Assembly: GCA_020852515.1 (NCBI GenBank)
Contig: JADZAS010000002.1
Span: 186,001 to 250,000 of the forward strand
DNA: 64,000 bases
Source of the DNA: Phycisphaerales bacterium
Lineage (GTDB): Bacteria > Planctomycetota > Phycisphaerae > Phycisphaerales > UBA5793
Direction: 5' to 3'
Made by a program: the position numbers and the translations under genes. A model generated the notes under the pieces. The model saw only the letters and a program-made list of their open reading frames with translations, was not told the DNA's origin and did no database searches. Every line of letters starts with the position of its first letter. Position 1 is the first letter of the stretch. Of the stretch, positions 21,272-23,466 are shown one piece after another.

Positions 21272-21533
21272 GATGGCTTGCACGCCGACGGCGTGATCGT
21301 CAGTAGCCGGGCGGTGAAGCGAGTCTTCGAGCGCCACCCTCGGAAGGCGATGCGTATTCCTCTGAACTCCGAAGGAGTTCTCGTGGGGTGCGGCGCGCAA
21401 CGGACGCGATGCGCGGCCGCACGATACGAGCACCCCTTCAGGGTGCGATCTATTGCCGGCGACACAACCGGGGGTCGCGCTCGCATGCGCTCCCTGGACC
21501 CCCGTCTAGGCGCGATGAGGCCTTTGGCCTCGA
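21272..21533 (+). repeat. Multi-hairpin dispersed repeat, copy A (262 bp)
   Basis: It aligns end to end with 23078-23338 in the same orientation, at roughly 80 percent identity by eye. It is built from a chain of short palindromes, most closed by GAAG, TTCG or similar loops: CACGCCGACGGCGTG, an imperfect CCGGGCGGTG...CGCCACCC stem, GAACTCCGAAGGAGTTC, CACCCCTTCAGGGTG and AGGCCTTTGGCCT. Stem substitutions tend to be compensated between copies. No coding frame is shared. It resembles REP/BIME-like elements; no transposase lies nearby. Confidence 0.8.
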
Positions 21534-21576
21534 CGCAAGACATTTCGCTCGCCGTCACACCCGCGCTCGCCACGAA

Positions 21577-22935
21577 TCATTCGAACGTCCACGTCACGGT
21601 GTGGCTGATTTCGCACTCGAAGGGTGCGATGGCCTGCATGCGGATGGTGCGGCCGCGGGCGTAGGGCGGGATGAACGTCGTGAACGTCGCGACGCCATTT
21701 TCATCGGCGCGGACCATCGGCAGTGCATGCGGGTCGCGGATGAGCAGTGTCCCGCCGGGGCAGGTCGGCCGAATCTTTTGTGCGCCTTCCTGCGTGCCCC
21801 AGACGAGAACAACCCGCTGATCGGGTTGAAGGCCCGTGATGGTCACGGTGTTTTTCCTGCCGGCGCGGCCCGGCACGGGGTTCGAGAGTTCAAACCGATA
21901 CGGCGTCACCAGCAGCGCCCGCTGCCGCCCGTCGTCGTATTCGCCGACGACGGCCATCTGGCCCGCGTCGTTGATGTCCTTGGCACTGACCAGTCGGAGG
22001 TCAGAGTATCGAGGAATCCAGTCGTTCAGGTCATGCACCGTGAACTCGGAATTGACCCGCTCCCAAATGACCGCATGCTGCTGGCCGTTGATGCAGCGCG
22101 GATCCGGGTTGGACTCGCCGGCGACCACGCCGAGATTGTTGATTGCCCATGGCGATGCGCCACATGTGCCGATGCGAGGTAGCGATCTTCGCACTCCGTT
22201 GGACCAGTGGAAGGCTCCGAACAACTGGATTGAACCCACGACTTCCGTCCAGTCATTGACGGCCGTCGCGCTGCCTCCCTGGTCGAACGGTTCGCCGCCC
22301 ACATCGATGGACTGACCGTCGCGCCAGAGAGTGGGGCGCGTAACGCCGAGTTGGTTTCGCTCTGTGCCGACAACGTGTCCGAGGTTGTTGATAGCGTCCG
22401 CCCAGCTTCTCTCAGCGCCTACCCGAATCGGCTGTTCGCCCTGCCAGACGGTGCTGTATGTGACGACGGCACCGCTGATACCCGTAGAGCGGCAATGTGG
22501 CCAAGGGCGATCGTCAACGGCATGAGCCTCACTCGAGTCCGTTCCGGGAATCGGCGGTAGCAGGTGGATTCCCTGGGACACAGTCCATGCAACAGCGCGC
22601 CAGGCCAATCCTTGACTCGGGATCGCGTAGCCCACAACCACGCCGCCCGCGCCGATATCGGCGCACCCAAAGCGATCGAAACCAGGAACCGGAGGCACGA
22701 CCAATGTGTCGCCGTTGATCCAGACGAAGTAGGTACCAGGCGTAGTGTTCGAGAGAATCAGGAACCGGCCGAAATCGTCCATCGCTTCGGCAGACGTACT
22801 ACTGTGTCCTTCCAGCGGTCGGATCTCGATCACGTCGTAGCCGATCACACCCGAAGGTTGCGCGGCTGCGACACCGGCAACCGCGGCGAAAGACCCGCAC
22901 ACGATCAGCCGTCGAATCGAGTTTCGGACCGGCAT
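21577..22935 (-). CDS. Secreted HAF-repeat-type protein
   Basis: A 452-aa protein with a Sec signal (residues 1-25, ending 'GVAAAQ'). The central part has repeated units of the extracellular HAF/'A-x-N-x-x-G-x-V-x-G' type: 'ADAINNLGHVVGTERN', 'ATAVNDWTEVVGSIQ', 'PWAINNLGVVAGESN' and 'AKDINDAGQMAVVGEY', each followed by a Trp-containing strand. The last about 100 residues are a beta domain ('LSNPVPGRAGRKNTVTITG'). One unit near 22500-22535 is odd: the in-frame text reads 'AVDDRPWPHCRSTG', while the +1 frame reads 'ALGHIA', the expected repeat core, so two compensating frame changes may have occurred. The gene is bracketed by the two direct repeats. Function unknown; probably surface-exposed. 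Confidence 0.7.
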   Translation of the reverse strand: MPVRNSIRRLIVCGSFAAVAGVAAAQPSGVIGYDVIEIRPLEGHSSTSAEAMDDFGRFLILSNTTPGTYFVWINGDTLVVPPVPGFDRFGCADIGAGGVVVGYAIPSQGLAWRAVAWTVSQGIHLLPPIPGTDSSEAHAVDDRPWPHCRSTGISGAVVTYSTVWQGEQPIRVGAERSWADAINNLGHVVGTERNQLGVTRPTLWRDGQSIDVGGEPFDQGGSATAVNDWTEVVGSIQLFGAFHWSNGVRRSLPRIGTCGASPWAINNLGVVAGESNPDPRCINGQQHAVIWERVNSEFTVHDLNDWIPRYSDLRLVSAKDINDAGQMAVVGEYDDGRQRALLVTPYRFELSNPVPGRAGRKNTVTITGLQPDQRVVLVWGTQEGAQKIRPTCPGGTLLIRDPHALPMVRADENGVATFTTFIPPYARGRTIRMQAIAPFECEISHTVTWTFE

Positions 22936-23077
22936 GCCCCGCCTCCCCTTGCGATGCGTTCACGACAAGTCTACATCAGAATCGAGGCGTTGAGTCGGTT
23001 TACAGGCGGAATCGGACCCCGTTTTTGCACGCGCTTGGCCGGCGCGCGCCCGGTGCTCAATCTCGCCTGCCCGTTCG
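22936..23077. other. Noncoding region upstream of the HAF-type gene
   Basis: A 142-base gap between the HAF-type gene start and repeat copy B. No ORF or clear promoter pair was seen. With the repeat and the 128 bases to the next stop it forms a noncoding block of 531 bases. Confidence 0.5.
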
Positions 23078-23338
23078 GATGGCTTTTACGCCGAAGGCGT
23101 GATCGTCAGTAGCCGGGCGGTGGAGCGAGTCTTCGAGCGCCACCCCCGGAAGGCGAAGCGAATGTTCCTGAACTCCGAAGGAGTTCTCGTGGCGTGAAGC
23201 GCGCGACCCGCGTGAAGCGTGCCGCACGATACGAGCACCCCTTCGGGGTGCAACGCGTCTGCGCCCGGCAGTCCGGGGGCCGCGCTCGCTTGCGCTCCCT
23301 GGACCCGCGTCTACTCGCGATGAGGCCTTCGGCCTCGA
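23078..23338 (+). repeat. Multi-hairpin dispersed repeat, copy B (261 bp)
   Basis: The second copy of the element at 21272-21533, same orientation. Its palindromes are cleaner: ACGCCGAAGGCGT, CCGGGCGGTGG...GCCACCCCCGG, GAACTCCGAAGGAGTTC, CACCCCTTCGGGGTG and GAGGCCTTCGGCCTC. Every perfect hairpin has a GAAG or TTCG-type loop, which is very stable in RNA. It lies between the convergent-facing ends of no genes; both neighbours are minus strand. Confidence 0.8.
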
Positions 23339-23466
23339 AGTCGGGAGGTCACGCATGGTTTGAGGACGATCTCGCCTGCCCGCTCGCACACCGCATCCAA
23401 AGCGGACTGCGGTGCGGCGCCCCGGCGATCCATCAAGAGATCGCGCGGCGCGGCGTTGCGAGCAGA

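Follow-up and report, generated by a model that had tools for sequence, protein, structure and literature searches.

The two direct 262-bp repeats that bracket a single gene in the window, a stretch of 64,000 nucleotides from a Phycisphaerales genome, are very likely non-autonomous, MITE- or REPIN-like derivatives of a small transposon, as judged by sequence comparison. In the autonomous form a gene for a Y1/HUH transposase of 148-150 aa would lie between an arm in the order hairpin-GTAG-REP-hairpin and an inverted copy of this arm. The 262-bp form would have a palindromic centre of about 50 nt in place of the gene. We observed a defined anatomy, covariation of the stems, dispersal of the copies and an association of the arms with a transposase gene (tnpA).

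Anatomy of the two copies

The first-pass annotation had described two direct copies sharing an ordered chain of five palindromes, mostly with GAAG or TTCG loops. Both copies, E1 and E2, are present in direct orientation and align with 84% identity from end to end, including blocks of 142 nt at 86%, 66 nt at 91% and 31 nt at 97% identity. An ordered hairpin chain is indeed common to both, but it comprises six hairpins and a central palindrome instead of five palindromes, and the loops of the small hairpins are actually GAA or TTC trinucleotides closed by a C-G pair. The following features were assigned.

21272..21533, + strand: element copy E1, two hairpin-GTAG-REP-hairpin units in a gene-less head-to-head dimer (ortholog in the congener G005: one copy, locus L121)
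21281..21295, + strand: E1 left outer hairpin hp1 (CACGCCGACGGCGTG)
21303..21306, + strand: E1 left tag GTAG, 7 nt 3' of hp1
21307..21343, + strand: E1 left REP-like hairpin
21364..21380, + strand: E1 left inner hairpin hp2 (GAACTCCGAAGGAGTTC)
21380..21430, no strand: E1 central imperfect palindrome, the position of tnpA in the autonomous form
21430..21446, − strand: E1 right inner hairpin hp2'
21468..21504, − strand: E1 right REP-like hairpin
21506..21509, − strand: E1 right tag position, here altered to CTAG
21517..21531, − strand: E1 right outer hairpin hp1' (GAGGCCTTTGGCCTC)
21577..22935, − strand: bracketed passenger gene, 452-aa HAF-repeat protein (NCBIfam HAF_rpt)
23078..23340, + strand: element copy E2
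23087..23101, + strand: E2 left outer hairpin hp1
23109..23112, + strand: E2 left tag GTAG
23113..23149, + strand: E2 left REP-like hairpin
23170..23186, + strand: E2 left inner hairpin hp2
23186..23235, no strand: E2 central imperfect palindrome
23235..23251, − strand: E2 right inner hairpin hp2'
23273..23310, − strand: E2 right REP-like hairpin
23311..23314, − strand: E2 right tag GTAG (CTAC on the + strand)
23322..23336, − strand: E2 right outer hairpin hp1'

The symmetry of the element is visible in an alignment of the five full copies from its own genome (G000). The left arm is composed, in this order, of a small hairpin, ATCGTCA, GTAG, the REP-like hairpin (CCGGGCGGTG...CACCCCCGG), a spacer of about 20 nt and another small hairpin. 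Its inverted counterpart forms the right arm, and the imperfect palindrome of about 50 nt lies between the arms. When folded as single-stranded DNA, E1 and E2 were more stable than their shuffled sequences (z −4.9 and −4.0), and none of 200 shuffles was equally stable.

Covariation of the stems

In an alignment of 43 units the stem pairs form in 94.8% of the cells, and the covariation score is 0.286 compared with 0.082 after shuffling; differences between copies thus preserve pairing, as the first-pass annotation had proposed. By shuffling, 21 double changes would be expected in the stems; 68 were observed. Pairing in the outer hairpin reaches 98.8%, four of its six pairs have changed on both sides and its GAA loop is nearly fixed. 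The tag sits directly 5' of the hairpin stem, and in the 43 units TAG is invariant and GTAG nearly so. The structure of the element is under constraint.

Covarying stems at intergenic positions would also be expected of a conserved structured RNA or of a terminator array regulating the neighbouring genes. However, a search of Rfam with the 262-bp repeat gave no match, no terminator-like sites were found at the hairpins of the element, and both the perfect inverted symmetry and the association with tnpA described below are unexpected for a regulatory RNA. In addition, the presence of the element varies between congeners at orthologous sites. We consider this explanation highly improbable, and it was rejected as the primary role; a secondary role of this kind may have been acquired following insertion.

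Copy number and dispersal

The genome that contains the window (4.7 Mb) yielded five full and 11 partial blastn matches, which are spread over many contigs. A covariance model built on the 63-nt half-unit was used to search six genomes, G000-G005, and detected 31 half-units in G000, 29 in its congener G005, 30 in G003, 58 in G001 (which belongs to another genus), seven in G002 and one in G004, some of these matches belonging to the related CCACGGGT family. The half-units and full dimers sit in unrelated contexts. Exact-pattern scanning of viral contigs and blastn against plasmids and phages gave no match. The copies spread over this genome and its relatives refute the case in which only the two copies of the window exist. 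They largely uphold the earlier suggestion of a mobile REP/BIME-like family that is non-autonomous and exceeds classical REP units in size.

Among 42 pairs of neighbouring units, 30 are oriented with GTAG outward and one with GTAG inward. The gaps of the outward pairs are of two sizes, 112-215 nt (24 pairs) and 559-709 nt (six pairs, four of them with tnpA in the gap), as would be expected if gene-less forms occur alongside gene-bearing ones. The second REP family (CCACGGGT) likewise occurs in short gene-less and long tnpA-bearing forms. Some units of G001 are single or in tandem and not dimeric.

Other hairpin repeats were seen beside these units. At 171 kb of contig C21 in G000 (L010, L012) a repeat with GTAGGTCAGGTGCAACCTGAC adjoins half-units of the 262-bp family, and the two seem to be nested. 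G001 holds a further tagged family (L134, L135, L148, L149), GTAGGGTGGGATAAGCG...CATCCCACC, often beside CCGGG units and preceded by a GGGGCACAT...ATGTGCCCC hairpin.

The locus of the bracketed gene

The protein encoded between E1 and E2 belongs to a HAF-repeat family with 67 tblastn matches in G000. The HAF-repeat proteins of this genome form a very large paralogous family with a common conserved C-terminal stretch.

We considered two alternatives in which the bracketing itself would be the essential feature. First, the copies could be the ends of a duplicated block with the HAF gene, without any mobility of their own. E2 and its upstream block do recur next to a HAF gene of 58-61% identity in both G000 and G005, and flank types are common to several copies: the segments A, U, B and X repeatedly accompany the element, shuffled among the copies, and therefore larger blocks have been duplicated too. 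But half-units and dimers are present in unrelated contexts, both across many contigs and in a second genus, and the same arms surround tnpA, which speaks against simple local or segmental duplication. We regard it as quite unlikely for the family, the dispersed copies ruling it out as a full account; for the two copies around the HAF gene it is likely.

Second, the two elements could act jointly as the ends of a composite unit carrying the HAF gene, which we think unlikely. The order gene-upstream block-element-X is found at different places, in the window and at L119 of G005, and the site of G005 orthologous to the window consists of clpC, one element and the asparaginase gene, lacking the HAF gene and the second element, as an insertion of such a unit would explain. 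At L119 and L078, however, an element is present on only one side of the HAF gene, the right flank is X in G000 and B in G005, which a simple composite insertion does not predict, and in G003 the same asparaginase gene likewise has a HAF gene next to it. The orthologous site of G002 contains neither element nor gene. The pair around the HAF gene most likely goes back to recombination at an element already in place and not to gene capture, a reading that accommodates either direction of change. The HAF gene is a passenger, and its bracketing is a local rearrangement and no defining feature of the family.

The partner transposase

There is no transposase near the two copies in the window, which agrees with the first-pass annotation; this annotation had also pointed to a REP-associated tyrosine transposase as a partner to look for. 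Outside the window, in the congener G005 (C61:137989-138327, L116), an intact tnpA of the Y1/HUH type encoding 148 aa lies between CCGGG-family arms on both sides, and these arms match the arms of the 262-bp element in order and orientation. A tyrosine transposase is thus flanked by the same arms, but it is IS200-like, of subclass 1.2 by its motifs, and no classical RAYT.

Six Y1 transposase matches were found in G000. An intact transposase with matching CCGGG arms was not found in this genome; the nearest Y1 relatives, L028 and L029, carry the unit layout with CCACGGGT hairpins on both flanks. In G001 a frameshifted tnpA relative adjoins a cluster of five units.

The L116 protein contains the motifs DH[IV]H, WQ and Y...Q..HH, which were present in 93, 119 and 115 of 120 relatives, respectively, and the arm-flanked proteins comprise 148-150 aa. 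By these motifs and this length, as opposed to placement in a reference tree, the transposase appears to match TnpA_Y1 subclass 1.2. Pfam Y1_Tnp and the NCBIfam model transpos_IS200 exceeded their cut-offs, whereas REP_Tyr_transpos did not reach its cut-off; the NCBIfam label is IS200/IS605 family, not REP-associated. Its relatives of solved structure are the transposases of ISDra2 and IS608.

Other Y1 genes, L030, L031 and their relatives, are RAYT-like and have different flanks. L031 is situated between repeats (GGGTGCCGTGGTCTGGAGGGAGG) which recur elsewhere and possibly represent a TIR-type family.

Inverted ends across phyla

In a survey of Y1 transposases, subclass 1.2 was found mostly in Cyanobacteria and Bacteroidetes and generally without terminal structures, with 'no' given under REP (PMC6006769). 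We examined 103 subclass-1.2-type genes with enough flanking sequence from Planctomycetota, Verrucomicrobiota, Acidobacteriota, Bacteroidota, Chlamydiota and other phyla. Inverted flanking repeats at z>5 were detected for 87 of them, compared with none of 56 distal segment pairs. The same flanks compared in direct orientation reached z>5 in 42/103, an effect of the self-complementarity of the small hairpins; the distal segments are the cleaner control. Of 112 genes, 88 showed the strict layout (a hairpin, then 6-8 nt, NTAG and the REP hairpin) on one side or both, as did 3 of 56 controls; for both sides the counts were 55/112 and 0/56, respectively. Bacteroidota were weaker (10/17). A detector restricted to GTAG gave only a few cases among 80 relatives since many feet are ATAG or TTAG, and the general inverted-repeat test was used instead. 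TAG was found at 115 of 143 feet in a search that admitted only TAG, CAG or AAG, so that its excess is partly conditioned by the search.

The identity of the REP stems rises with the identity of the transposases (Mantel r 0.38, 0 of 2000 permutations). This correlation supports joint inheritance; it is consistent with specificity but no proof of it, and is partly due to descent among close proteins.

A further alternative is that the family is a classical RAYT-mobilised REP/BIME with a class 2 TnpA_REP as partner, the link to subclass 1.2 being incidental. The genome does contain class 2-like Y1 genes (L030, L031), and the GTAG tag with its hairpin matches that of classical REPs (PMC3733652). 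Yet the gene between the CCGGG arms is of the subclass 1.2 type, none of the 11 further Y1 genes in the genomes examined showed the strict layout, and end and transposase sequences co-vary. We therefore judge a class 2 partner very unlikely. The arms are probably what the orphan transposase group of the subclass 1.2 type, which occurs in several phyla, recognises.

Evidence bearing on mobility

A copy on contig C44 of G005 is missing from the orthologous intergenic region of G000 (559 and 116 nt, respectively) and also from that of G002, G003 and G004. At the tnpA locus of G005 the element is absent in G000, G002 and G004, where the left flank is inverted. The element at this locus borders a segment of at least 1 kb which is inverted relative to these three genomes (L306, L307, L309).

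Neither the tnpA locus nor the C44 site offers a clean empty site, the latter lacking an exact junction, and no target-site duplication was seen at these two sites or in the flank comparisons, the flanks being rearranged. E2 is closely flanked by an 18-nt direct repeat (23060-23077 and 23369-23386, 17/18 identical). This is probably not a target-site duplication because the sequence also occurs in the upstream block of other copies. Most copies of G000 are syntenic with G005, and therefore activity is low or past; the family looks old in G000. Dispersal and the presence or absence at one intergenic region indicate past mobility or the insertion of a block.

Comparison with known systems

GTAG-tagged REPs with their head-to-head dimers (PMC3733652) and REPINs (PMC3116915) resemble the family in the short hairpin with GTAG at its foot, the inverted pairs with GTAG outward, the structured spacer, the intergenic position, the tens of copies and the link to a Y1 transposase. 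Unlike in these systems, two additional small hairpins with covarying stems flank each unit, the dimer measures about 260 bp with a spacer of 112-215 nt, and the partner is of subclass 1.2 and not a class 2 TnpA_REP (RAYT). The copy number is modest compared with the hundreds in classical REP genomes. With subclass 1.2 as published (PMC6006769) the transposase shares DH[IV]H, WQ and Y...Q..HH, the length of 148-150 aa and a low copy number, but most of the genes tested here, from several phyla, have inverted hairpin ends.

The IS200/IS605 elements IS608 and ISDra2 have a homologous HUH/Y1 TnpA and, at their ends, a hairpin preceded on its 5' side by a tetranucleotide. Ends of the IS608 type, however, are both on one strand instead of being inverted copies, whereas the ends described here are inverted repeats of three hairpins each, and a tnpB, as in IS200/IS605, was not seen. 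In TIRtrons/TIRYT, too, long inverted repeats enclose a Y1 gene and gene-less repeats are dispersed, but according to their description these TIRs have no relation to GTAG REPs, most of them belonging to subclass 2.1 (PMC3733652). As in MITEs, the gene-less copies have both ends in common with the autonomous partner. A target-site duplication was not seen in their rearranged flanks, and single-strand Y1 chemistry would be expected, not DDE.

Proposed mechanism and significance

We propose that the arms would fold once the DNA is single-stranded, and that the transposase would bind the REP hairpin and the GTAG guide at each inverted end, cut the element and move it as single-stranded DNA. Gene-less copies would be served by the transposase in trans. 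Binding, cleavage and trans-mobilisation are probable by analogy with the biochemistry of IS200/IS605 (IS608/ISDra2) and TnpA_REP (PMC8266576).

For the group as a whole, we lean towards the view that subclass 1.2 represents widespread ssDNA transposons with inverted hairpin-NTAG-REP-hairpin ends, that repeats like the 262-bp element are their trans-mobilised gene-less population, and that this REP/REPIN system arose independently of the class 2 RAYT systems. REP, REPIN and Y1 transposase are parts of known kind. Judged by the open-access literature searched, the inverted multi-hairpin ends of subclass 1.2 and the matching gene-less population appear to be new.

The Y1 proteins of subclass 1.2 are widespread and were previously without a known DNA substrate; the ends supply a candidate substrate for each gene. 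They also give a name to hairpin repeats that are abundant in Planctomycetota, Verrucomicrobiota and Bacteroidota and lack annotation. An element with symmetric inverted ends stands between the asymmetric IS200/IS605 transposons and the domesticated RAYT/REP systems, and such an intermediate bears on the origin of REP systems.
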